64,000 bases of DNA from Bifidobacterium animalis subsp. animalis ATCC 25527 (lineage in GTDB: Bacteria; Actinomycetota; Actinomycetes; Actinomycetales; Bifidobacteriaceae). The DNA lies in the NCBI RefSeq assembly GCF_000260715.1, contig NC_017834.1, positions 744,001 to 808,000 on the forward strand, read 5' to 3'. Shown here piece by piece: positions 3,452 through 24,501 of this stretch (the stretch's first letter is position 1; each line of letters opens with the position of its first letter). The translations under genes were made by a program, and so were the position numbers. The notes beneath the pieces were generated by a model, which worked only from the letters and a program-made list of their open reading frames with translations, was not told the DNA's origin and did no database searches.

Positions 3452-4419
3452 CACAATCGCTCACAGACAAGGAACGCGAGGCCATGCACTCCGACTTCGG
3501 ATTGCGGCTGAGCAACTCAATGAAGCAATACGGGCCGCTATGCGTGGGCATTGACCCGCATAGGGGCGTGCTCGAGAACTGGGGGTACAGCGTCGACGCC
3601 GAAGGCGCGGAGCTCTTCGCCATGCGTATGCTTCAGGCGGCCAGCGGCAGGGCCGCAGCCGTCAAGTTCCAGCTCTCCATGTTCGAACGCTACGGCTCCC
3701 GCGGTTTTGTGGCGCTGGAACGCGCCCTGTACGCGGCCCGTCAGATGGAGCTCATCACCATTGTCGACTGCCTGCATGGCGGCTTGCCAACCACCATCTC
3801 GGCCATTGCCGACGCCTATTTCAAGCCGGGTGCGCCCATGCTTGCCGATGCGATCACGTTGTTGCCATACTACGGTGCGCGGTCGCTCGGCGGTGTGATC
3901 AACGATGCGCTTGACAATGGGAGGGGAGTCTTCATCGCCTCGCTCACGTCGAACCCGGAGGGCGCGAGTCTGCAGACCGCAATCCGCCAGAACGGCGAGT
4001 ACAAAGGCAAGACAGTGGCCTATGGCATCGCCGCGACCGCTCAGAAGTACAATAATTCGGTGAAGGGCCTCGGCTCGGTCGGACTCATCATTGGCGCGAC
4101 CATTAGCCAATGGCTGCAGGAAAGCGGCATCGAACCGGGCGATTTCACAGGGCCGATCCTCTCGCCGGGCTACGGTTGGCAAGGTGCGGAGGGCAGCGAT
4201 CTGAAGAACGTGTTCCATGGCACCAACGGCAATGTGTTGGTGACGGTGTCCCGCGCGATTTCGCAAAGCGGGCCCGACATGGATGCGCTCATCGAAAGCA
4301 CCCAGACCATTGCCGCCGATGTACGCAAGGCATTGCGCGAAGCCACCGACGGCACGTCGACGGCGCCACGCGGACACATGGCGAATCCAAAAGGATTGCG
4401 CACTTGGGAGGAACAATGA
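3448..4419 (+). CDS. pyrF: Orotidine-5'-phosphate decarboxylase-like protein with altered catalytic motif
   Basis: This 323-residue protein has the layout of actinobacterial (type 2) OMP decarboxylase, the last step of UMP synthesis: GIDPH near residue 32, VKFQLSMFE with the conserved Lys at 73, TSNPEG near 170, and the phosphate-binding strands GLIIGAT and LSPGYGWQG. The catalytic signature DxKxxD, however, reads D107-C-L109-H-G-G112, so the catalytic Lys and the second Asp are missing. From the family mechanism the protein should be a poor or inactive decarboxylase. It may be a regulatory or structural paralogue, with the true pyrF elsewhere on the chromosome. It overlaps carB by four bases and gmk by four bases, so it has been kept in frame in a housekeeping operon. 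An alternative is an unusual but active variant. The symbol reflects family, not proven activity. Confidence 0.85.
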
Positions 4420-5045
4420 GCGAACAATCCCGGCAATCGCAGGCAACCGAGCGGCAAGGCGGCCGGCTGATCGTACTCACCGGTCCCACAGCCGTGGGCA
4501 AGGGCACCGTCGAGACGGCGTTACGCAAGGCTCATCCGGAGGTCTGGGTTTCGGTCTCTGCCACCACGCGCGATCCACGGCCGGGGGAACGCGATGGCGT
4601 GAACTACTGGTTCATAAGCGAACCCGAATTCCTGCGCAGGCAGGAGGCGGGGGAGTTCCTCGAAACCGCCGTCGTGCATGGCATGGCGCACTACGGCACG
4701 CCGTTGGAACCCGTACGTGAGCACTTGGCGGGGAACGTGCCGACGATCCTCGAGATCGACCTGCAGGGTGCGCGCCGCGTCAAGGAGCGCGCGAAGGAAC
4801 TCGGACTCGACGTGGTTTACGTGTTCATCGCGCCACCAAGCTTCGACGAGCTCAAGAAACGTCTGATCGGGCGTGGGACGGAGACGCCTGAACAGCAGGC
4901 GAAGCGGCTCGAGACCGCGAAGGTGGAGCTGGCGGCGGAGCCCGAGTTCGATGTGACGATCGTGAACGAGCAGGTGGACAAAGCGGCACGGGACTTGTGG
5001 AACGTCATCGCACAGGAATACGGATTGCCACAGGACTCCGACTGA
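4416..5045 (+). CDS. gmk: Guanylate kinase
   Basis: Converts GMP plus ATP to GDP plus ADP. The 209-residue protein has the P-loop LTGPTAVGKGT at about residues 19-29, the GMP-binding region SATTRDPRPGERDGVNYWF, and EIDLQGARRVK as the Walker-B-like strand. The reading frame is open far upstream, but the ATG at 4416 is chosen because it follows a good ribosome site (GGGAGGAAC) and overlaps the preceding stop as ATGA. In many actinobacteria an integration-host-factor gene (mihF) lies between pyrF and gmk; here there is no room for one. A perfect 21-bp hairpin follows. Confidence 0.96.
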   Translation: MSEQSRQSQATERQGGRLIVLTGPTAVGKGTVETALRKAHPEVWVSVSATTRDPRPGERDGVNYWFISEPEFLRRQEAGEFLETAVVHGMAHYGTPLEPVREHLAGNVPTILEIDLQGARRVKERAKELGLDVVYVFIAPPSFDELKKRLIGRGTETPEQQAKRLETAKVELAAEPEFDVTIVNEQVDKAARDLWNVIAQEYGLPQDSD

Positions 5046-5061
5046 CGGCATGCAGCATCGA

Positions 5062-5110
5062 ATGCGAGTGGGGGTGCCACCGAGGAAACCGGTGGCACCC
5101 CCACTCGCAT
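5062..5110. terminator. Perfect 21-bp hairpin between convergent gmk and ilvD
   Basis: Arms 5062-5082 and 5090-5110 are perfectly complementary around a 7-base loop. There is no T-run on either side. Its place between two convergent genes suggests a bidirectional terminator or an mRNA 3'-end stabiliser. Confidence 0.75.
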
Positions 5111-5141
5111 AGGTTCTAGGTATCGAGGATTCCCGGCCGAA

Positions 5142-7007
5142 TCAGGCCAGTCCCGAAAGACGGTCGATGAGCTCGGGGTCGCGGGTGGCGCCCTTGTCGG
5201 CCGACCTGGCGAAGGCGGCGAAGGCCTTGAGTGCTTGGCTCACCTTGCGATCACGGTGTGCGACATAGCCATCGCCGGCCTCGAGTTTGGCACGGCGCTC
5301 GGCGAGTTCCTCGTCGGTCAGCTCGACGTTGATCGTGCGGTTCGGGATGTCGATGGTGATGATGTCGCCGTTCTCGACGAGCGCGATGTTGCCGCCGCTC
5401 GCCGCCTCAGGCGCCACATGGCCGATTGACAGGCCCGAGGAGCCGCCCGAATAGCGACCATCGGTGATCAGTGCGACGTCCTTGCCTATGCCCTTGCCTT
5501 TGACGAACGAGGTCGGGTAGAGCATCTCCTGCATGCCTGGGCCGCCCTTCGGTCCCTCATAACGGATGATGAGTGCCTGACCTGGTTTCAGCGTGTCGTT
5601 GAGAATGACCTCGACCGCCTGCTCCTGCGATTCGACGACGAGCGCGGGACCACGGAACTTCCAGATCTCCTTCGGCACACCTGCGGTCTTCACCACAGCG
5701 CCATCCGGGGCGAGGTTGCCACGCAGCACGGCAAGACCGCCTTCGGTCACGGCGGGGTGGTCGATGTCGTGGATTGCGCCGTTCACACGGTCGGTGTCAA
5801 GCGAATCGAATTTCGTCTCATGGGTCCATGGCTCGGGGGAGACGATGTGGCCTGGAGCCGCCCTGTAGAACTCCTTGGCGTATTCGGTGCAGGAGTCGCG
5901 CATGATGTCCCACTCGTCGAGCTTGGCCTCGAGCGAGGGGTAGTCGATTGAATGCACATCGCGGTGGAGCTTGCCGGCACGGTCGAGCTCACCCAGGATT
6001 CCGGTGATGCCTCCGGCTCGGTGTACGTCGGAGATCTCCCATTCGCCGGATGGCGATGCCTTGCAGATGCACGGCACCGTATGCGAGATGCGTTCGATGT
6101 CATTGAGTGTGAAGTCGACGTCCGCGGACTGTGCCATCGCGAGAATGTGCAGCACGGTGTTCGTCGAGCCGCCCATCGCCACATCCATCGTCATGGCGTT
6201 CTCGAAGGCGTGCTTCGTGGCAATCGAACGGGGGAGCACGGATTCGTCGTCATGCTGGTAGTACTGGTTGGCGATCTTGACCACCTGTTGTGCCGCCCGC
6301 TCGAACAGCTGCTTGCGGTAGCCGTGCGAGGCGAGCACCGTGCCGTTGCCGGGCAGTGCAAGGCCGATCGCCTCCGTGAGGCAGTTCATCGAGTTCGCGG
6401 TGAACATGCCGGCGCATGAGCCGCATGTCGGGCACACGGTGCGCTCGAAGGCGAGGAGGTCGTCGTCGCTCATGGAATCGTCGGCAGAGGCGTACATGAC
6501 GTCGATGAGATCGGTGTTCTCCTTCACGGTGCCGTCCGGCAGCACGGTGGTGCCGGCTTCCATGGGGCCGCCGGAGACGAACACGGTCGGAATGTTGAGA
6601 CGCAACGCCGCCATGAGCATGCCCGGTGTGATCTTGTCGCAGTTCGAGATGCAGATCAGCGCGTCCGCACAATGCGCGTTCACCTGGTATTCCACGGTAT
6701 CGGCGATGATCTCGCGGCTAGGCAGGGAGTACAGCATGCCGGTGTGTCCCATGGCGATGCCATCGTCGACGGCCATGGTGTTGAACTCGCGTGGGATGCC
6801 GCCGGCCTTCTTCACGGCCTCGGAGACGAGACGTCCTACTTTGTTGAGATGTACGTGCCCGGGGACGAATTCGTCGAAGGAGTTGGCAATGGCGACGATC
6901 GGCTTGCCGAAATCCTTGCTGTCAACGCCGGCCGCACGGTAGAGCGCACGGGCACCGGCGAACATTCGTCCGTTCATGATTTTTGCAGATCGCATTTCCA
7001 TGAGCAT
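5142..7007 (-). CDS. ilvD: Dihydroxy-acid dehydratase
   Basis: Dehydrates 2,3-dihydroxy acids in valine, isoleucine and pantothenate-precursor synthesis, using an Fe-S cluster. The 621-residue protein shows both cluster/metal signatures: CDKITPGM near residue 125 and [18 protein letters not shown] near 195, plus the C-terminal [14 protein letters not shown] strand. The start chosen gives [16 protein letters not shown]; an internal Met at residue 3 or 5 is possible. It stands alone and inverted between gmk and rpoZ, splitting the usual actinobacterial gmk-rpoZ pair. It shares a 166-base divergent spacer with rpoZ. Confidence 0.96.
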
Positions 7008-7101
7008 CTATTCAACTCGAACTTCGCGGAGAGTGGGCAACGCTTCCGCATGCTGGAATTTCCGTCCGTAATCTCAACAGAATAGGCACATCTGTCAGAG
7101 T

Positions 7102-7131
7102 TTGCCTATTTTCGCTGACTTGAAGTATACT
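7102..7131 (+). promoter_or_regulatory. Promoter for rpoZ
   Basis: TTGCCT at 7102-7107 and TATACT at 7126-7131, spaced by 18 bases, lie about 42 bases upstream of the rpoZ ATG. Both boxes match the housekeeping sigma consensus at 4-5 of 6 positions. Confidence 0.6.
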
Positions 7132-7173
7132 GAACCTTTGCATAAGCATTTGCTAGTGATTTGGAGATTTCAA

Positions 7174-7458
7174 ATGGCATTCGGCACTGAGCCTACCCCG
7201 ACCGGTCTTGCGGATCCGCCGATCGACGACCTCATGGAGCATGCGGATTCCAAGTACGCACTGGCCATTTTCGCTGCCAAGCGTGCTCGCCAGATCAATT
7301 CCTACTTCACGCAGCTCAATGAGGGTCTGCTGCAGAACGTCGGTCCGCTCGTCGAGTACAAGAGCCAGGAGAAGCCGCTGTCGATCGCGTTCCGTGAGAT
7401 CGACGAAGGCCTGCTTGAGGAGACGCTCGGCGAAGACGATCTGAGCGAAGGCAACTAG
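7174..7458 (+). CDS. rpoZ: RNA polymerase omega subunit
   Basis: Small subunit that helps assemble the beta' subunit of RNA polymerase. The 94-residue protein contains the family core: [18 protein letters not shown] at the N-terminus followed by [11 protein letters not shown], and the later IAFREIDEG strand. The frame is open upstream to 7102, but the ATG at 7174 follows a plausible ribosome site (TTGGAG) and begins the conserved region. The gene is followed by a strong intrinsic terminator. In many actinobacteria coaBC lies between rpoZ and metK; it is absent here. Confidence 0.93.
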
Positions 7459-7479
7459 ACTTTCACGAACATGCATGTG

Positions 7480-7514
7480 CGCCCTGCCAGGTATTGGCAG
7501 GGCGTTTTTGTTTT
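7480..7514 (+). terminator. Intrinsic terminator of rpoZ
   Basis: A perfect 10-bp GC-rich stem (7480-7489 with 7495-7504, 5-base loop) is followed at once by TTTTTGTTTT, a classical rho-independent terminator. Confidence 0.93.
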
Positions 7515-7639
7515 GCCATCCCAGCTCGGCTCAAGCGCAAATTCCGGTAGTGCTAAGTTACGCTTGCGTATGAAAGTAGCGAAGATGTGATTGAATTGTG
7601 GAGACAAACGCCCGCATATTGAAATAGAGAGGAAGAGTC

Positions 7640-8866
7640 ATGGCAGAAGTGAAGCTGATCTCCGCGGAATCCGTTACCGAAGGGCATCCCGACAAGATCT
7701 GTGATCAGATTTCCGACGCCATTCTCGACGACATGCTCCGCCAGGACCCGCATTCCCATGTGGCGGTGGAGACATCCGCCACGAAGGGCCAGTTCTGGGT
7801 GTTCGGCGAAGTGACGAGCAAAGGGTACTCCGACATCCAGAGCATTGTGCGCGATACAGTGCGTAGGATCGGGTACACCAGTTCGGTGATTGGTCTGGAT
7901 GCGGATTCCTGTGGCGTTCTTGTTTCACTGAGCGAACAAAGCCCCGAAATCAACCAGGGTGTTTCCCGAATCGAGTCGGACCGGGAGAACGCCGTCTCGC
8001 GCGAGGAACGCTACGAGGCCCAGGGGGCGGGCGACCAGGGCGTCATGTTCGGCTATGCAAGCGACGAAACCGATGTGCTCATGCCATTGCCGATCCATCT
8101 GGCGCATCGTCTGGCATACCGGCTCGCCGAGGTGCGTAAGAACGGCGAGGTGAAATTCCTGCGCCCTGACGGCAAGACGCAGGTGACCATTGAATACGAT
8201 GAGGAGAACAGACCGCTGCGCGTCGACACCGTGCTCATCTCCACACAGCACGATCCCGAGGTCTCGCAGGAGGCATTGCGCGAGGATCTGCGGGAGCATG
8301 TGATTGAGCCGGTGCTCGATGAGGTGCTGGGGGATGCGGTGAAGCACGACGACTACCGCGTGCTCGTCAATCCGACAGGTTCGTTCATCATGGGCGGTCC
8401 GGCAGCGGATGCAGGGCTGACCGGTCGCAAGATCATCGTCGACACCTATGGCGGTGCGGCCCATCATGGCGGCGGCGCGTTCTCGGGCAAGGATCCGAGC
8501 AAGGTGGATCGTTCCGCGGCCTATGCCGCACGTTGGGTCGCCAAGAACATCGTGGCCGCGGGTTTGGCCCATAAGGTCGAGGTGCAGGTTGCCTACGCCA
8601 TCGGCGTGGCCGAGCCGGTGAGCATCAATGTGGAGACCTACGGCACCGAGGCGGACGGCGTGACCCGCGAGCAGATTCAGGAAGCCGTGCGCAAGGTGTT
8701 CGATCTGCGTCCTGCCGCGATTGTGGACGAGCTCGACCTGCTGCGTCCGATCTATTCGAAGACGGCTGCGTACGGCCACTTCGGCCGTGAGGACGATGAC
8801 TTCACTTGGGAGCACACCAACAAGGTCGATGAGCTCAAGCAGGCCATCGCCACCCTCGTCGACTGA
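7640..8866 (+). CDS. metK: S-adenosylmethionine synthetase
   Basis: Makes S-adenosylmethionine from methionine and ATP; cytoplasmic tetramer. The 408-residue protein has the start [20 protein letters not shown], the ATP-binding [12 protein letters not shown] near residue 134, and the P-loop-like [19 protein letters not shown] near residue 280, all diagnostic. The start follows a good ribosome site (GAGAGGAAGAG). No SAM riboswitch fold was recognised in the 125-base spacer upstream. The product also supplies the methyl donor for the cyclopropane synthase encoded next door. Confidence 0.97.
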
Positions 8867-15350: not shown

Positions 15351-15408
15351 TTTGCGGGGCCGTGCATTACAATGGCATACGGAACATTCGGATTGAACGA
15401 AGGTGGGT

Positions 15409-16977
15409 ATGGGGCAGGAGAAGCACACGGACGCGGCTTCGCAGTCCGTGAATCCCGAGGCTGTGGCGGCGCATGAGAACGACCAGCTGCGGCAGCGCAA
15501 CCACGCGCTCGCCAAAGCGCTCACCCGTGCCACCGAGGAGCTTCGCAAGGCGAAGGCGCAGCTCGAGCAGTTCATGGCACCGCCATTGACAATGGCGACC
15601 ATGGTCCGCGTGCATCGCTGTTCCACCGATGAGCATGGTGTGCGGCGTGCAAGCGCGGAGATTCTCAATGGCAACAGACGCCAGATCGTCCCGCTATCGC
15701 CGACTGTCAATCCCGCACGGTTGGGGAGCGGCCAAGGCGTGTTGCTCGATGCCAACATGGTGATTGTCGATTCCTGCGAGACACCTACTACCGGTCCGAT
15801 GCGTGCGGTCTCGGAAAGCCTTGCCGACGGCAAGCTCATCGTCTCCGATGCCGGAGGCAATCGCGGTGTGGTCATGCGTGCGAGCGCGGTGGCACGAACT
15901 CCGATCAACGTTGACGACCGTGTGGTGATCGATCCCTCCGGTACCTATGTTTTGTCTGTACTGCCGCAGGAACAGGCGCAGGATCTGCTTCTCGAGGAGA
16001 CCCCGGATGTCTCCTTCGCCGACATCGGAGGTCTGGATGAGCAGATCGCACGGATTCGCGATGCCGTGCAGTTGCCGTTCCAGCATCGCGACCTCTTCGC
16101 CCGGTTCGACCTGAAAGCGCCGAAGGGCGTGTTGCTGTATGGGCCTCCAGGCAATGGCAAGACGCTCATAGCCAAGGCCATCGCGCATGAGCTGGCCGCG
16201 GGCAGTGGTAACGACGGCGTGTTCCTGTCGGTGAAGGGACCGGAGCTGCTCAACAAGTTCGTAGGCGAGTCTGAGCGCCTCATTCGCAGAATCTTCGAGC
16301 GGGCGAAGGAGCTGTCGGGTGCCGGACGCCCCGTCATCGTGTTCATCGACGAGATGGATTCGCTGCTGCGCACCCGAGGCACAGGCGTCTCCAGTGATGT
16401 GGAGACGACGATCGTGCCGCAGTTCCTCACCGAGCTCGACGGCGTGGAGAGCCTGGACGACGTGATGGTGATCGGTGCCTCGAATCGCATCGACATGATC
16501 GATCCAGCGGTATTGCGTCCGGGACGTCTGGACGTCAAGATTCATGTCACACGGCCGGACGAGACGGCCGCCCTGGCCATCACCCGCCATTACCTCACCG
16601 ATGCGCTGCCTCTTGAGCCCGGCAGGGACGCGGATGCGCTGGTGGCCTCGCTGGTGCGTGATCTTTTCCGCAGGGATGAATCCCGGTTGCTTGCCATGCT
16701 CGATGAACAGGGCCATCGGCGTGGGATTTACATGGCCGACATCGTCAGCGGTGCGATGCTGCGCAACATCGTCGACCGGGCGAAGACCAAGGCGGTGAAG
16801 GCCGAAATCCTCCATGGGTCGACGAGCGGGGACGATGAACCGCAAGGCATCACCGAAGCGCGGATCCATGAGGCCATTGACGATGAATACGAACAGAACC
16901 GCTCCACGATCAACGAGACGGATCCGGGGCAATGGCTCAGAATCAACGCGTTGACGTTGGCGGCCGACGGCGTCTGA
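15409..16977 (+). CDS. arc: AAA ATPase ARC/Mpa (proteasome-associated ATPase family)
   Basis: Hexameric AAA unfoldase that, in mycobacteria, recognises pupylated proteins through an N-terminal coiled coil. The 522-residue protein has the coiled coil (about residues 20-65), OB-fold inter-domain, Walker A GPPGNGKTLIAKA near 244, Walker B VIVFIDEMDSLL near 310 and an SRH region. The C-terminus ends in LAADGV, without the GQYL tail that docks Mpa to the 20S proteasome, matching the absence of prcBA from the neighbourhood. The ATG at 15409 (two codons after a GTG at 15403) follows GAAGG. It leads the dop-pup-pafA locus. Without a protease it may act as an unfoldase or disassembly machine. Confidence 0.9.
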   Translation: MGQEKHTDAASQSVNPEAVAAHENDQLRQRNHALAKALTRATEELRKAKAQLEQFMAPPLTMATMVRVHRCSTDEHGVRRASAEILNGNRRQIVPLSPTVNPARLGSGQGVLLDANMVIVDSCETPTTGPMRAVSESLADGKLIVSDAGGNRGVVMRASAVARTPINVDDRVVIDPSGTYVLSVLPQEQAQDLLLEETPDVSFADIGGLDEQIARIRDAVQLPFQHRDLFARFDLKAPKGVLLYGPPGNGKTLIAKAIAHELAAGSGNDGVFLSVKGPELLNKFVGESERLIRRIFERAKELSGAGRPVIVFIDEMDSLLRTRGTGVSSDVETTIVPQFLTELDGVESLDDVMVIGASNRIDMIDPAVLRPGRLDVKIHVTRPDETAALAITRHYLTDALPLEPGRDADALVASLVRDLFRRDESRLLAMLDEQGHRRGIYMADIVSGAMLRNIVDRAKTKAVKAEILHGSTSGDDEPQGITEARIHEAIDDEYEQNRSTINETDPGQWLRINALTLAADGV

Positions 16978-17059: not shown

Positions 17060-18664
17060 ATGAGCGTGCGCAGAGTGATGGGGACGGAGACCGAGTATGC
17101 CGTGTCGGTACGGCAGGATCCCCATGCCAACCCGGTGCAGTCGTCATTCGATGTGATTGCCCATGCAGGCGATGAGGAGACGAGGCATATTCGTTGGGAC
17201 TACCGGCAGGAGGATCCGGTGCATGATATGCGGGGTATGACGATGCCCCGCGCTGCTGCACGTCCCGACATGCTTACCGACGAACCGCAACGCAATATCA
17301 CGAACGCCTTCGCAGCCAATGGAGGGCGCATGTACGTGGATCATGCGCATCCCGAATACTCCGCGCCGGAGACGCGCGATCCGTTTGAGGCCGTGGCCTA
17401 TGATTTCGCCGGCGATCTGCTTATGCGCCGGGCCGCCCAATCCGCGAGCACTGAGCGGCATCAGTTCGAGGTGTTCCGCAATAATGCGGATGGCAAGGGC
17501 GCTGCGTGGGGGAGCCATGAGAATTATCTGCTGCGTCGCGATGTGGACTTCGATGTAGTGACTGTGCTCATGCTGGTCCATTTCGCCACCCGGCAAATCT
17601 ACACGGGCTCTGGACGCGTGGGGCTCGGCGAGCGTGGCGAACGGGCAGGCTACCAGTTGAGTCAGCGTGCCGATTACTTCCATATGAAAGTGGGTTTGCA
17701 AACCACTTTCGACAGGCCGATCGTGAACACCCGCGACGAGTCGCATGCGCCTGACGAGATGCGCAGACTCCATGTGATCGTGGGCGATGCTAACCGCCTG
17801 GAAGTGCCGGACGTGTTGAAGCTCGGTACGACAAGCATGCTGCTGTGGGTGGCCGAGCAGGCATCTGCATTGGATTACGACCTGACGGACGAGTTGCGTT
17901 CCCTTTCGCTTCTCGACCCGGTCGCCGCCATGCACACGGTGTCGCACGACCTGACCTTCGACGAACCACTCGCTTTGGCCGATGGAGGTTCGAGCACGGC
18001 GTGGCAGCTGCAGGTGTCGCTGCACGGGCTCGTCTATGAGGTGGCGTCGATCGTGTACGGCACTGATTCGCTCGGGGAGCCGGTATGGCCGGATTCGCAG
18101 ACCCGCTCGGTCATGGCGATGTGGCGTCAGGCATTGATCGACGTGGCCGAGGTGCGCCATGCCGACGACGACACCCGAATGACGATGACCGCGCAGGCCT
18201 CTCGACTGGAATGGCTGCTCAAATGGCAGCTGCTCGAACGCATGCGCCGACGCATCGCCGGTTGCGGCGCATCCTCCGCCTCGAGCTGGGACAATCCACA
18301 GGTGCGCGCGCTCGAATTGCGATGGGCTTCACTCGCTCCCGAGAACGAGGCGGTGTTCGCCAAGGTGCGCTCCCGTGCCGAGCGTGTGGTGACGGATGAG
18401 CGTATAGCCGCGGCGGCGACCGATGCCCCGGCGGACACGCGCGCATGGCTCCGTGCCGCGATACTGTACAGGTTCCCCGATGAATTGCGTGCGATCTCCT
18501 GGACCCGAATCACCACCGTTGCCGATGGAGCCGGTGATTCCTGGACGCTCGACATGCGCGATCCCACGCGGTTCACCAAAGATGACACCGAACGGCAGGT
18601 GGAGGAGGCGTCCAGCGCGGCGCAGCTCATCAGGAGTCTCGGCGGCATCTGTGAACATTCGTAG
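17060..18664 (+). CDS. dop: Pup deamidase/depupylase Dop
   Basis: Carboxylate-amine-ligase-fold enzyme that removes Pup from targets and, where needed, deamidates Pup's C-terminal Gln. The 534-residue protein starts RVMGTETEYAVSV. It contains the Dop-specific loop (about residues 37-75), the YVDHAHPEYSAPE strand holding the catalytic Asp, and the nucleotide-binding GSHENYLLRRD. These features distinguish it from PafA, encoded downstream. A good ribosome site (GAGAGGAGCGG) precedes the ATG. Because the local Pup already ends in Glu, only the depupylase activity should be required. Confidence 0.93.
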   Translation: MSVRRVMGTETEYAVSVRQDPHANPVQSSFDVIAHAGDEETRHIRWDYRQEDPVHDMRGMTMPRAAARPDMLTDEPQRNITNAFAANGGRMYVDHAHPEYSAPETRDPFEAVAYDFAGDLLMRRAAQSASTERHQFEVFRNNADGKGAAWGSHENYLLRRDVDFDVVTVLMLVHFATRQIYTGSGRVGLGERGERAGYQLSQRADYFHMKVGLQTTFDRPIVNTRDESHAPDEMRRLHVIVGDANRLEVPDVLKLGTTSMLLWVAEQASALDYDLTDELRSLSLLDPVAAMHTVSHDLTFDEPLALADGGSSTAWQLQVSLHGLVYEVASIVYGTDSLGEPVWPDSQTRSVMAMWRQALIDVAEVRHADDDTRMTMTAQASRLEWLLKWQLLERMRRRIAGCGASSASSWDNPQVRALELRWASLAPENEAVFAKVRSRAERVVTDERIAAAATDAPADTRAWLRAAILYRFPDELRAISWTRITTVADGAGDSWTLDMRDPTRFTKDDTERQVEEASSAAQLIRSLGGICEHS

Positions 18665-18690
18665 GTCGTGCATCCGCTGTATCCAGCGCG

Positions 18691-18710
18691 CTCGCATAGG
18701 GCGAGTTTTT
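18691..18710 (+). terminator. Weak intrinsic terminator after dop
   Basis: A 5-bp CTCGC/GCGAG stem (18691-18695 with 18701-18705) followed by TTTTT. It is short and may only attenuate read-through into the next gene. Confidence 0.45.
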
Positions 18711-18783
18711 CAGAATACTCACAGATTATTTGCTAGTCTTGGAACAGATTTTTCCAAGACATAAGGTCACAGGAGGCATTGGT

Positions 18784-19677
18784 ATGCAGGCCGGATTACG
18801 GGAGCTCGCAGTGCAGGTGAGCCGCATCGCCGAGGATGCCGGCAAGCATGCGCTCAAGGACCAGCTCATGCCGAAGGATCTGGTGACGCTGAACACGGTG
18901 CAGCGTGACTACTCACGCGGGCTCAAGGTGGACGACCGCCTGTCGCAGTTCATCTACAATCGTCTCACCTACATCGATCCGTTCAAAGGCCGTTGGGAGG
19001 ACCGCACCGACGAATGGGCGCCCGGAGACCGGTACTGGTGCGTGGGCGGTGTCGATGGCGTGATCAACTATTCGCGCAGCATGGCCGAATGGAGCGTGAC
19101 CATCTCGCTGTTCGAATTCAATGAGTTCGGATCGGCCCAGCCGATCCTGGGGGTGATTCACGCGCCGGCACTGAACCTCACCTATTTGGCCGCCCGACAG
19201 CAGGGCGCGATTCGTATGCGCAATACGCCGGTGGGGGAGAAGCGCGAGAAGATCATGCCATCCACAATCAGCCACCTCGATGGCTCCATCGTGAGCTTCG
19301 GCATGTCGTATGTGCCACAGGAGGCACAACATGCCCTCAATGTGGTCGCGAGCCTCGCCGGCAAGCCCGCCGACATCAAACGGATCGGGCCCGTCTCGCT
19401 CGATGTGTGCAAAGTGGCCGATGGTACCTATGACGCATATTTCGAACCGCATCTGCATGAACGTGACGTGCCGGCCATCTCAGCCGCCGCCGTGGTGCTC
19501 TGGGAGGCCCAAGGGCAGTTGAGCACATGGGAGGGCGGGCTCATCCACTGGCGCAGCCAGAACGATCTCGTGGCCACCAACGGGCAGATCATACAGGAGC
19601 TACAGCCCTACCTCATCAACTCCGATTGCGGGGAATCCTACCATCATCACGAGCAGAAGCCAGCGGGACAACAGTGA
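18784..19677 (+). CDS. Inositol-monophosphatase-fold protein lacking metal-binding residues
   Basis: The 297-residue protein follows the inositol-monophosphatase/HisN fold order: LDDRL-type N-terminal helices, the central strand, ILGVIHAPAL, ATNG near the C-terminus, and the VVLWEAQG helix. The Mg-binding sites are gone. The GEE strand reads KGRWED, the DPxDGT motif reads GGVDGV (residues 88-93, with only Asp91 kept) and the WDxAAG motif reads PAISAA (residues 230-235). It is therefore probably a non-catalytic pseudo-phosphatase. It lies between dop and pup on the same strand, so a role in the pupylation system is an inference from position. The ATG at 18784 follows ACAGGAGG; an earlier Met would lack a ribosome site. 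Confidence 0.8.
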   Translation: MQAGLRELAVQVSRIAEDAGKHALKDQLMPKDLVTLNTVQRDYSRGLKVDDRLSQFIYNRLTYIDPFKGRWEDRTDEWAPGDRYWCVGGVDGVINYSRSMAEWSVTISLFEFNEFGSAQPILGVIHAPALNLTYLAARQQGAIRMRNTPVGEKREKIMPSTISHLDGSIVSFGMSYVPQEAQHALNVVASLAGKPADIKRIGPVSLDVCKVADGTYDAYFEPHLHERDVPAISAAAVVLWEAQGQLSTWEGGLIHWRSQNDLVATNGQIIQELQPYLINSDCGESYHHHEQKPAGQQ

Positions 19678-19765: not shown

Positions 19766-19981
19766 ATGCCATCTGCATCCGAACACCATCAGATCCCCGC
19801 CGAGACACAGCGGCATGATGACGACCAGACCCAGGGAACGGCCCAGGGTCTTTCCGCGGCGGCCATGCTCGCACAGGAGCAGGCTGACGATCTCGATGCG
19901 ATTCTCGACGACATCGAAACCGTTCTCGAGACGAACGCCGAGGAATATGTGAACAGCTTCGTGCAGAAAGGCGGCGAGTGA
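19766..19981 (+). CDS. pup: Prokaryotic ubiquitin-like protein Pup
   Basis: Intrinsically disordered 71-residue modifier attached through its C-terminal Glu to lysines of target proteins. The C-terminal part is recognisable: AQEQADDLDAILDDIETVLE (coiled-coil binding helix for ARC), then EEYVNSFVQKGGE. It ends in Gly-Gly-Glu rather than Gly-Gly-Gln, so it is made ready for ligation without deamidation. The ATG at 19766 follows GGGGGAG. Its stop overlaps the pafA ATG by one base (TGATG), so the modifier and ligase are translationally coupled. Confidence 0.93.
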   Translation: MPSASEHHQIPAETQRHDDDQTQGTAQGLSAAAMLAQEQADDLDAILDDIETVLETNAEEYVNSFVQKGGE

Positions 19982-21471
19982 TGCCACAGCTGCACGACAG
20001 TGGCAGCAGGGCGATACAGCCGTCAGACCAGACGCATAGGCATGATTTCGCGCGCATCTTCGGCATTGAGACCGAATACGGTGTGAGCGTCACCGATATT
20101 CCGGAACCCATGGACGCCAGTCATGTGGCGATGACCATGTTCCAGCCCGTCGTGCGCAGGGCCCGTTCCACCAACACCTACGTGGAGAACGGCTCACGTC
20201 TGTACCTCGATGTGGGATCCCATCCGGAGTATGCGACCGCCGAGGCGATATGCCCCTCGGATGCGTTGCTGAGCGATCTGGCGGGGGAGCAGATCATGCG
20301 TTCGATGGGGCTTGACGCCCAGCGGAGGCTGCGGGAATCCGACGCGCGGAATCGGCGTGCGACCTTGCATCTGTACAAGAACAACGCCGACAGTGCCGGT
20401 CATTCATTCGGTTGCCATGAGAACTACCTCGTGCGCCGTTTTGTGAATCTGGACATGATACAGCATGTGTTGCTGCCATTCCTCATCACCCGGCAGATCT
20501 ACACCGGGGCCGGCAAGTTCGACGGTGAACGTCTCCTGTTCACCCAACGTGCGGCATTTGTGGACGAGACAGTCTCCAGCGCCACCACACGGTCGCGCCC
20601 CATGATCAACACCCGTGACGAGCCGCACGCCAACCCCGAGGACTACCGGCGTCTCCATGTGATCATAGGCGACTCCAATCGTTCCCAGTGGGCCACCCTT
20701 ATGAAATGCGCCACCACGCATCTCGTGCTGTGCATGATGGAGCATGCAGCACGCAGCGGATGTGATGGTGGGCTCGAGGCATTCGCGCTCGCGGATCCGA
20801 TCGCCGCGAACCACGCCATCAACGCCGACGGGCCGCATGCCCGCATCGCACTGGCATCGGGGTGTTCGACCACCGCACTGGAACTGCAGCAGCGGATGCT
20901 GGAGCAGGTCGAGACCTTCTCCGCACACCATGGTGATGCGTTGGGTGCGTCGTTGCGGTATGACGCGCAGTGCAATGTCGAATGGATTGTGGGCCAATGG
21001 CGGTGGATCCTCGACAGATTGGCGGCCAATGACATCGAGACGCTGTCGCATGTGATCGATTGGGCATCCAAGCAGATGTTCTTCACTCGGTTGCGGCTGC
21101 GCGGCACCGTCACACCGGCCAGATTACGCCAGCTTGACCTGGACTATCACGACATCGCCAACGGCAGGCTCTACCCGTCGTTGTGCGCGCATGGCCTGAT
21201 GCGCACCTTGGTGGATGCGGATCAGATTCGCGATGCCGTGTCCACGCCACCCTCTCATACGCGTGCCGTGCTGCGTGGACGTTTCGTGGCGGCGGCATCG
21301 CACACCGATGCCGTCTACGACTGCGATTGGACGACGCTGAAGCTTGTGCGTCCGGTGCATATGGAGGCGGTGCTGCTCGATCCGTTCCGCGACGAGCCGA
21401 CCAAGCAATATGACGAACTCATGGGCGAATTGCGTGATTCGCGAGAGGATGGCGATGAAGCGCCCGTCTGA
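19981..21471 (+). CDS. pafA: Pup--protein ligase PafA
   Basis: Uses ATP to form a glutamyl-phosphate on Pup and joins it to a lysine side chain of a substrate protein. The 496-residue protein has the N-terminal RIFGIETEYGVSVT strand, LYLDVGSHPEYATAE carrying the catalytic Asp, GCHENYLVRR and the shared NTRDEPHANPEDYRRLHVI strand. It lacks the long Dop loop. A GTG three bases earlier (19978) is possible, but the ATG at 19981 fits the TGATG overlap with pup. No prcB or prcA lies beside it. An intrinsic hairpin follows. Confidence 0.93.
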   Translation: MPQLHDSGSRAIQPSDQTHRHDFARIFGIETEYGVSVTDIPEPMDASHVAMTMFQPVVRRARSTNTYVENGSRLYLDVGSHPEYATAEAICPSDALLSDLAGEQIMRSMGLDAQRRLRESDARNRRATLHLYKNNADSAGHSFGCHENYLVRRFVNLDMIQHVLLPFLITRQIYTGAGKFDGERLLFTQRAAFVDETVSSATTRSRPMINTRDEPHANPEDYRRLHVIIGDSNRSQWATLMKCATTHLVLCMMEHAARSGCDGGLEAFALADPIAANHAINADGPHARIALASGCSTTALELQQRMLEQVETFSAHHGDALGASLRYDAQCNVEWIVGQWRWILDRLAANDIETLSHVIDWASKQMFFTRLRLRGTVTPARLRQLDLDYHDIANGRLYPSLCAHGLMRTLVDADQIRDAVSTPPSHTRAVLRGRFVAAASHTDAVYDCDWTTLKLVRPVHMEAVLLDPFRDEPTKQYDELMGELRDSREDGDEAPV

Positions 21472-21996: not shown

Positions 21997-24501
21997 TCAG
22001 ATCAGATTGTGCTTATCCAGCCACTTCATAGCCAACGCACCCAACGGAATACGCAACCAGTAGAACACGATACGGTAGAGCAATGTGGCTGATAACGCCA
22101 ATGCGGCGGGGACCCCGACGGCGCTGAACGCCACCGACAGCGCGGCCTCGACGGCACCGAGGCCACCCGGTGTGGGCACCGCTGAACCAAGTGTATTCGC
22201 CAGCAGGAAGATGAACGTCGTCTCGATGGGGTTCATGTTGAATCCAAACGCCATGAGCGCCGCCCAGAAGCCGAAGCCTGTGGAGAGATTCAGAATGAGG
22301 GAGCCGGCCACCGAACCGAGCAGCTTACGCGGCTGCGTGAGCGTTTCCAACAACGATCTGGCATATGACTTCACCAGGGGAAGATACTTGTCGGCGATCT
22401 TCCTGCGCACCGAGGGGATCGCCATAATCACGCTGATCACTAGGGCGACGACCGCGATAGTGAGAATCAGTGTGTTCGTGGGAATCATGCCGGAAAGGGT
22501 GTTACGGCCGGTGAAAATGCCAATGAGCAGCAGCAGGACCACTGTGATCACCCCCTGCACGGCGAGCACGGCGCTCATGATGGCAGTGGCGGTCGTATTG
22601 CGGTAGCCGCTCTTGCGCAGGTACTGGAGGTTCACAAAGGCCGGGCCGATGCCGGCAGGCATCGACACCGCAGTGAATCCGGCGGCAATCTGCGAGCAGA
22701 GCAAACCGAAAGGCCGACGGCGGTCCCTGTCCATGAAGGCGCCGAGGGCCATGGCCGAACCCACCCATGCGAGGAAGCCGAACAGCATGACAACGAATGC
22801 CCACCAGAGATTCGCCTGCTTCACGGCGCGAATCATCTCGTCCGGCCGCATCTGGGTCAGCATCACGTAGACGGCGATCACCAGCAACACAAGACCGAAG
22901 AACGATCGCGCATTGAATCGCGTGAGCGTCACCTGCTCCATCGATTCTGCCACTTCTTCAGGGGCCAGTTTACTGAGTGCGGTGCGCAGATCCTCGACGA
23001 TCTGCTTGTTCCAGCCTTCCATCTGCCGGGTGGCGGTGGGGACGGCGGCCTTCTGCACAAACGGAATCAACGAGATGAGTGTCGATTCGCCCCAGGCACG
23101 GCGTGCGAGCGAGACGGTGCGTTCAATGCCGAGCATCGTGCTGAACAAGGTGAGCAGCTGCACTTTGTCGAGCGTGATGTTCGTGGTGGCGGACGCGTAA
23201 TCGCCATTCTGCCAGCCGGCAATCACCATATCTCCATTGGCGGAGCGCGCAATGGTGTCCGCCGTGATCTGGCGGTGAGTGAAGCCACGCTGATGCGCAT
23301 GCTGCAGATAGTTCATAAGCGAGAGCACTTCGGTATCGTCGAGCTCCTCGCAATCCACGGCGTGAATGGTCTCGCGGTGTTCGAACACGACTATGGAGGA
23401 TTCACCGTAGTCGCAGACACCATAGGGTCTTGCACAGGTCAGATCTATGTCACGCAGCCCCAGCAGCATGGAATAGTGGTGATGCGTGGCGCTCACGGCG
23501 GAGCGATCATGGCGCACCGCGACGCCGCTGAGCCGAATGAGCTGCCACAGCTGTGAGAAATAGCCGGTGATCTGCATTTGGTTGTCAAGCACCGACACCA
23601 CATAGTGCACGCCACTCTCATCAGTCAGATCGTAGAGTCGGGAATGGTCGGTCAGGTCGTCCGCAAGCATCGGTGCATGGTCGGATGCCTCGGGGCGTCG
23701 GTCAAGGACGGCCGGATGCAAGCCTATTGAGCTCAGCGCCTGCACGATCTGATATCCCCATGCTCCCGAGTTCTTCGTGCCCACGCCGAAACGGATGGAC
23801 AGTCCCACCATGCGACCGATGCAAATGGCCACCAGCACACCAGGCAACGAGCTCCACGAGGTCATGATGAAGATCACGGCGCCGGCGAGGAGTATATTCC
23901 AGCTCCACTTCACCGACGACCGGGTGTCACGGGGACCTGCGACCGTGAGGAATGAAGCTATGGCGGCGTAGAAGTCGGGCAACAGAGAGGGCCCTACACG
24001 GGTGCCACTCGACAGCAATGTGTTGATGAGCATGGCGCTGCTGTGGTAGGAGAGCAGTTCGGAGACACCCCAGCAGACAAGGAAGCCGATGAGCAGCGCG
24101 CCGACCGAGCAGGCGGACTGAAGCCATTCCCGGTTGAGCACCAATTGGATGAGCACCCCTACCACGATGGAAATCACAATGAGCTGTTGCAGCAACGACG
24201 ATGGCAGGTCGACAAGCCAGTCGAATGCCTGACTGGCGGAATGGGCGTCATCTTCGACGCCGGTGGTGAGCCCATGGAGATAGACGGCGACCAGGATCAC
24301 CAGAATCCCGAATACGAGAGCCGCACCTGCGTGCAGCAGATCGCTGGTCACGTGGTTGCGCTTCGGTGCCACATCGTTGACCTTCACGTTGGGGAACCTA
24401 CTTGCCAGTGCATGCTCGGGGGTCTTCTCGATGGACGGTTGTTGCACATCCGTCTGATCGGAGGGCACCCGACCTGAGCCGGACGAATTGGGCGTTGTCA
24501 T
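21997..24501 (-). CDS. Membrane fusion protein: N-terminal TM region, pseudokinase-like domain, flippase-like (UPF0104/LPG-synthase TM) domain
   Basis: An 834-residue protein in three parts. Residues about 50-240 hold several membrane helices. About 260-530 form a cytoplasmic domain resembling a protein/aminoglycoside kinase. About 540-830 form the multi-helix TIGR00374/YbhN-type domain with GIGPAFVNLQYLRKSGY and the diagnostic PTPGGLGAVEAAL. In the kinase-like part the catalytic loop reads HAHQRGFTHRQITADTI (His409-Arg-Gln where HGDL/HRDL is expected) and the DFG position reads AGW, so catalytic and Mg-binding Asp residues are missing. The family is associated with lipid translocation or aminoacylation, but no soluble lysyl-transferase domain is present. 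GAAGGAC precedes the ATG. The substrate is unknown. Confidence 0.8.
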   Translation of the reverse strand: MTTPNSSGSGRVPSDQTDVQQPSIEKTPEHALASRFPNVKVNDVAPKRNHVTSDLLHAGAALVFGILVILVAVYLHGLTTGVEDDAHSASQAFDWLVDLPSSLLQQLIVISIVVGVLIQLVLNREWLQSACSVGALLIGFLVCWGVSELLSYHSSAMLINTLLSSGTRVGPSLLPDFYAAIASFLTVAGPRDTRSSVKWSWNILLAGAVIFIMTSWSSLPGVLVAICIGRMVGLSIRFGVGTKNSGAWGYQIVQALSSIGLHPAVLDRRPEASDHAPMLADDLTDHSRLYDLTDESGVHYVVSVLDNQMQITGYFSQLWQLIRLSGVAVRHDRSAVSATHHHYSMLLGLRDIDLTCARPYGVCDYGESSIVVFEHRETIHAVDCEELDDTEVLSLMNYLQHAHQRGFTHRQITADTIARSANGDMVIAGWQNGDYASATTNITLDKVQLLTLFSTMLGIERTVSLARRAWGESTLISLIPFVQKAAVPTATRQMEGWNKQIVEDLRTALSKLAPEEVAESMEQVTLTRFNARSFFGLVLLVIAVYVMLTQMRPDEMIRAVKQANLWWAFVVMLFGFLAWVGSAMALGAFMDRDRRRPFGLLCSQIAAGFTAVSMPAGIGPAFVNLQYLRKSGYRNTTATAIMSAVLAVQGVITVVLLLLIGIFTGRNTLSGMIPTNTLILTIAVVALVISVIMAIPSVRRKIADKYLPLVKSYARSLLETLTQPRKLLGSVAGSLILNLSTGFGFWAALMAFGFNMNPIETTFIFLLANTLGSAVPTPGGLGAVEAALSVAFSAVGVPAALALSATLLYRIVFYWLRIPLGALAMKWLDKHNLI

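Follow-up and report, generated by a model that had tools for sequence, protein, structure and literature searches.

A 64,000-nucleotide stretch of the Bifidobacterium animalis subsp. animalis ATCC 25527 genome (contig NC_017834.1, positions 744,001 to 808,000; hereafter the window) carries, between the pupylation genes dop and pup, a gene for a protein of the inositol monophosphatase (IMPase) family, which we call imp. That imp encodes a conserved, lineage-specific and probable pseudo-enzyme with a core role is a solid finding. The gene is kept in the examined lineages that have lost the pupylation cluster, so that a separate core job is the most likely explanation for it, and the role of its product is very probably independent of pupylation.

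Retention of imp was assessed in 189 genomes of the Bifidobacteriaceae. The profile used for Dop (TIGR03688) also picks up PafA, giving two matches in most genomes, and a genome without a match should therefore have neither protein. Both imp and a Dop/PafA match were found in 141 genomes, imp only in 24, a Dop/PafA match only in one (G096, 82% complete and in 340 contigs) and neither in 23. At least 90% completeness is reached by 21 of the 24 imp-only genomes; those lacking both include incomplete and reduced genomes. Small Bifidobacteriaceae genomes (G174–G183; 0.6–1.4 Mb, 87–100% complete) are without imp and without a Dop/PafA match. The dop-less state, exemplified by Gardnerella species, B. 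bombi, Bombiscardovia coagulans and B. xylocopae, takes five or more changes to explain on the imp tree (a quick tree with no bootstrap, holding 23 of the 24 dop-less genomes; G107 is absent), all forced by branches starred in that tree. The number of changes alone cannot separate gain from loss, and we read them as losses because remnants of pupylation genes persist. At the B. xylocopae locus (L186, positions 4200–7700, partly read by eye), arc is disrupted by frameshifts and stop codons, pup has no normal end, pafA lies in decayed remnants and dop was not found; imp is complete. In all 20 dop-less loci fetched, imp has kept its place next to or close to fmt/serB and/or hup.

Purifying selection on imp persists without pupylation in the pairs tested: the ratio of nonsynonymous to synonymous substitution rates (dN/dS) is 0.03–0.12 in seven usable dop-less pairs versus 0.05–0.15 in seven usable dop-containing pairs, 5 of the 19 pairs having been dropped for saturated dS. 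Invariant residues, identical in dop-containing and dop-less sequences, occupy 56 of 277 alignment columns, and the pattern expected of relaxation, constant in the former yet variable in the latter, is confined to columns 192 and 193. This comparison omits the deepest row (L067), a row duplicating the window gene (L001) and an orthologue of uncertain start close to the end of a contig (L066), the last two being left out also of the tree and of the alignment of 81 orthologues described below. Searched in the same way for a pupylation-specific surface, the alignment yielded just those two columns, too few to read.

The linkage of imp to pup is nevertheless tight. The sequence-only reading had named, as a refutation of its proposal, a gene not conserved next to dop and pup in related genomes, and the relatives compared here do not refute it in this way. 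Of the 80 named loci (the best 80 of 129 confirmed), 71 have a pup match, the decayed pup of B. xylocopae included, and in all 71 imp stands directly before it in the same orientation; none of the other queried genes intervenes, and the pup match starts 4–374 bases past imp. Most of the other named loci have these genes on a single strand, but in five (L133, L140, L143, L154 and L173) dop and arc lie on the opposite strand and imp, pup and pafA stay together. The C-terminus of Pup in the 71 loci is GGE in 51, as in the window, GGQ in 18 and odd in two (L134 and L186); deamidation by Dop is known to be required only for the GGQ form.

A part for the imp protein in pupylation itself, whether as an adaptor or Pup-conjugate receptor, both of which the sequence-only reading had put forward, or as a regulator of PafA or Dop, would suit this order, the cohesion of imp with pup and pafA in the five divergent loci and the presence of imp in 141 of the 142 family genomes with a Dop/PafA match. 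It is contradicted by the 24 of 189 genomes that keep imp with neither Dop nor PafA, by the number of changes on the tree, by conserved residues and dN/dS values that are not relaxed in dop-less sequences (columns 192 and 193 excepted) and by the intact imp of B. xylocopae beside decayed arc, pup and pafA. These natural deletions mostly refute the pupylation interpretation, which we consider highly unlikely and the least likely of the alternatives.

The constant linkage of imp to pup, with no shared biochemical function, would be explained if imp were the promoter-proximal gene ahead of pup and pafA in one transcription unit. A −10-like hexamer occurs upstream of imp in 44 of 79 regions versus 21.2 expected, and before pup in 12 of 71 versus 11.4 expected, which suggests an imp-pup-pafA unit headed by imp; the promoter claim is based on the upstream regions of relatives and not on the B. 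animalis genome. Beyond the family, the 20 order-level IMPase loci inspected (3.5 kb each, of 349 matching genomes) gave no match to dop, pup, pafA, arc or any other neighbour. Only the imp query matched there, and on the strength of these 20 loci a tie between IMPase-type genes and pupylation outside the Bifidobacteriaceae was rejected.

Within the genomes searched, imp is restricted to the Bifidobacteriaceae. It is present in 110 of 112 genomes of the genus, including all 105 with a completeness of 90% or more and a contamination of no more than 5%. A match was obtained in 168 of the 189 family genomes, three of which (G121, G124 and G161) match only weakly, to generic IMPases, leaving 165 with imp. 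A set of 396 genomes of the order contained 36 members of the family, of which 32 score at least 429.5 bits (the 32 do not include the deepest orthologue, L067, which scores 260.6 bits with the single window protein as query) and four have no match; the best genome outside the family, among 349 that had a match, scores 115.5 bits. The orthologues form one group apart from other IMPases (Shimodaira–Hasegawa-like approximate likelihood-ratio support of 99), although in this quick tree, built without bootstrap, long branches leave the exact origin unsure. A chance open reading frame or artefact is ruled out by the 165 strong family orthologues, the window's own included, and by the low dN/dS.

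The sequence-only reading had assigned the protein to the IMPase family, which is confirmed by its match to Pfam PF00459 (58.2 bits; curated cut-off 27), by the unchanged order of motifs and by the IMPase fold of the predicted structure, obtained from an alignment of the window protein with 69 of the 80 named loci. The segment KRxGPxSLDxCKVADGxYDAYFE resembles GSAALDL...VAxGxxDxxFE of canonical members (SuhB/IMPase, e.g. PDB codes 2p3n and 8wdq). Residues were compared in an alignment of 81 orthologues and 33 canonical IMPases, of which the family supplied 13 and the order 20; a further generic IMPase locus (L079), which gave no tblastn match, is outside the 13. In IMPases, Thr95 and Glu213 (human numbering) have roles that involve the catalytic water and the substrate. 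In the human enzyme, the metal ligands are Glu70, Asp90 and Ile92 for Mg-I, Asp90, Asp93 and Asp220 for Mg-II, and Glu70 for Mg-III (PMC4954947, where Glu213 is mentioned as a passing metal contact).

Judged by this alignment, the pocket has been altered on one side. The position of Asp90, which is common to both catalytic metals, is Gly in 78 and Cys in three of the 81 orthologues (position 88), and that of Thr95 (position 93) is Ala in 29, Val in 25, Ser in 10, Pro in eight, Ile in six, Thr in two and Gly in one, whereas all 33 canonical IMPases have Asp and Thr. At the Glu70 position (73), invariably Glu in the canonical set, the orthologues have Glu in 31 cases, Asp in 29 and other residues in 21, the GEE motif being lost or relaxed. 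Thus, the four acidic metal-pocket residues of the human enzyme (Glu70, Asp90, Asp93 and Asp220) are represented by one strict loss, one relaxed position and two retained residues. The orthologues also differ from canonical IMPases in a short insertion after the Asp of the WD motif and in the new invariant residues W71, E102 and P203. Conservation is highest at about residues 197–230, in the C-terminal half of the pocket; because the Asp90/Thr95/GEE side is lost while this segment is the most conserved, the metal side of the predicted pocket is seen as decayed and the other side as frozen. Canonical metal-dependent phosphatase activity is probably absent, and a pseudo-phosphatase is the most economical reading of the protein.

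We propose that imp encodes a core IMPase-fold protein, peculiar to the Bifidobacteriaceae, that would have lost metal-dependent phosphatase chemistry and kept the substrate side of its pocket. The pocket may recognize a small phosphorylated ligand and, with the metal-bridging Asp gone, bind it without hydrolysis; the ligand-bound protein might then regulate a partner or act as a scaffold in a housekeeping process independent of pupylation. That the non-catalytic role is one of ligand-binding regulation rather than of some other kind is close to an even call, and the account as a whole, with a core non-catalytic regulator or scaffold for a phosphorylated ligand standing in front of pup and pafA, deserves belief and doubt in about equal measure. 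Among the roles suggested by the sequence-only reading, ligand sensing survives as the favoured one, and those of adaptor and Pup-conjugate receptor do not, imp being kept after the loss of pupylation. In comparison with the actinobacterial arc-dop-pup-pafA locus, all four genes of which flank imp in the window, the difference is that imp was found only in the Bifidobacteriaceae and outlives the other four. It is conceivable, although on balance unlikely, that imp encodes an essential non-catalytic metabolite receptor, evolved from an IMPase that lost the metal-bridging Asp and had the substrate side of its pocket frozen, and that the expression of pup and pafA is tied to the promoter of this receptor wherever pupylation exists; if so, this promoter would wire protein tagging to a core metabolic or growth signal.

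Several observations weigh against this proposal. D91 (human Asp93), D228 (human Asp220, the Asp of WDxAAG) and E221 (human Glu213) are invariant in 81 of 81 orthologues, and the Glu70 position is acidic in 60 of 81. Two orthologues of one lineage, L062 and L065, read CPIDGT and CPLDGT, keeping the Pro and Thr and having Cys at the Asp90 position. With D91, D228 and E221 in place and position 73 mostly acidic, a weaker or re-wired activity is possible. Moreover, the unbroken adjacency to pup is as compatible with a functional link as with a transcriptional one, and at the imp locus of the window itself a simple scan detected no σ70-type promoter at threshold. The sequence-only reading had described the protein as conserved-looking but catalytically empty, its metal-binding residues lost. 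The first Asp and the Thr of DPxDGT and the GEE motif are indeed gone, and the protein is conserved and probably non-catalytic, but the second Asp of DPxDGT and the Asp of WDxAAG remain, and the description is confirmed only in part; D228 was probably overlooked because of the short insertion behind it (VPAISAA).

The invariance of D91, D228 and E221 and the mostly acidic position 73 would support a protein that is still an enzyme, its pocket re-wired, with a single metal or with a different acid standing in for Asp90, to act on a new substrate such as a phosphorylated inositol lipid or some other core metabolite. The gene is the sole PF00459 match in 104 of the 110 genus genomes with a match, and inositol-1-phosphate synthase is present in 18 of the 21 genomes tested (the window's own and 20 dop-less ones) and in 110 of the 189 family genomes, so that a genuine phosphatase step could exist that might otherwise be without an enzyme. 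However, Asp90 is absent from all 81 orthologues and Thr95 from 79, position 73 is non-acidic in 21, and 56 of the 165 genomes with imp have no match to the synthase, for which reason the inositol pathway was rejected as a partner. We regard a re-wired enzyme as possible but rather unlikely. Identity with the histidinol-phosphate phosphatase HisN (IMPase family; PDB codes 5yht and 5zon) was also rejected: the imp protein lacks catalytic residues and scores 49 bits against a TIGR02067 cut-off of 275.15, and HisG, which is present in the window's own genome, is absent from all 20 tested dop-less genomes that keep imp. As HisG and inositol-1-phosphate synthase are missing from many genomes with imp, neither the synthesis of histidine nor that of inositol is common to them all.

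A further alternative is a non-enzymatic factor in transcription or ribosome biogenesis that, like SuhB, works through its surface rather than through a ligand. The best PDB sequence matches of the imp protein are SuhB, including chains of an rrn antitermination complex, and a housekeeping role would fit the core conservation of imp. E. coli SuhB, likewise an IMPase-fold protein, has a transcription role as a Nus-associated factor (PDB codes 6ib8 and 6tqn; PMC4807359; PMC6614801) and binds the AR2 domain of NusA (6ib8). This dependence on a NusA domain may count against a SuhB-like role in bifidobacteria. Against such a role also stand the retention by SuhB itself of the canonical motifs TEE and DPLDGT, which imp lacks, and the concentration of the strongest conservation in the former pocket segment; such a factor seems quite unlikely.

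Judged by titles and opening abstracts, no paper on imp in this setting was found. If COG1218/CysQ belongs to the COG class 'Inorganic ion transport and metabolism', an essential gene of B. breve could be imp. The gene comes from a transposon screen of strain UCC2003, which reports a single essential gene in its 'Inositol phosphate' category, apparently placed in that COG class (PMC5514069). B. longum proteins have been placed in a figure of IMPase-family proteins (PMC1590026).

The open reading frame of imp and its location between dop and pup, as given by the sequence-only reading, are confirmed (Table 1). A longer form could start from an in-frame TTG at 18730. The nearest named relative of the protein is from Bifidobacterium canis (87% identity). 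A perfect inverted repeat, CTTGGAA-N7-TTCCAAG (18738–18758), ends 25 bases 5′ of the imp start; it was spotted by eye and was not seen upstream of B. canis imp. The ATG of pafA overlaps the pup stop by one base, and a GTG at 19978 is another possible start. No match to the 20S proteasome family PF00227 was found in the window's own genome, which is 1.93 Mb in size. Farther downstream, the minus strand (21997–24501) encodes a membrane protein with an LPG_synthase_TM domain at residues 535–821, the middle part of which resembles a degenerate protein-kinase domain by eye, with no Pfam match there; its gene remains close to imp in several dop-less loci.

Table 1. Features of the imp locus (window coordinates)
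Feature	Position	Strand	Remarks
arc/mpa, proteasome-type ATPase	15403..16977	+	TIGR03689, 602.6 bits
dop	17060..18664	+	TIGR03688, 562 bits
Weak terminator-like hairpin and T run between dop and imp	18689..18713	+	6 such sites in scanned region versus 3.3 expected
imp, IMPase-fold protein, 297 residues	18784..19677 (stop included)	+	ATG 18784, stop 19675–19677
Former GEE region, WEDR, codons 71–74	18994..19005	+	W71 invariant; D73 at Glu70 position
Former DPxDGT motif, GGVDGV, codons 88–93	19045..19062	+	D91 retained; losses are the metal-bridging D at 88 and the T at 93
Kept C-terminal half of pocket, DIKRIGPVSLDVCKVADGTYDAYFEPHLHERDVPAIS, codons 197–233	19372..19482	+	Most strongly conserved stretch
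pup, 71 residues from ATG, C-terminus GGE	19766..19981	+	TIGR03687, 65.9 bits
pafA	19981..21471	+	PF03136, 447.7 bits; TIGR03686, 526.7 bits, slightly below cut-off 551.3 (profiles scanned against 19990–21468)

The repeated loss of the flanking pupylation genes amounts to a natural experiment in which linkage and function come apart, and it cautions against inferring pathway membership from gene order. All 105 near-complete genomes of the genus that were examined have imp as a core gene; its family match would say phosphatase, probably wrongly, and it is a candidate for a lineage-specific essential function.
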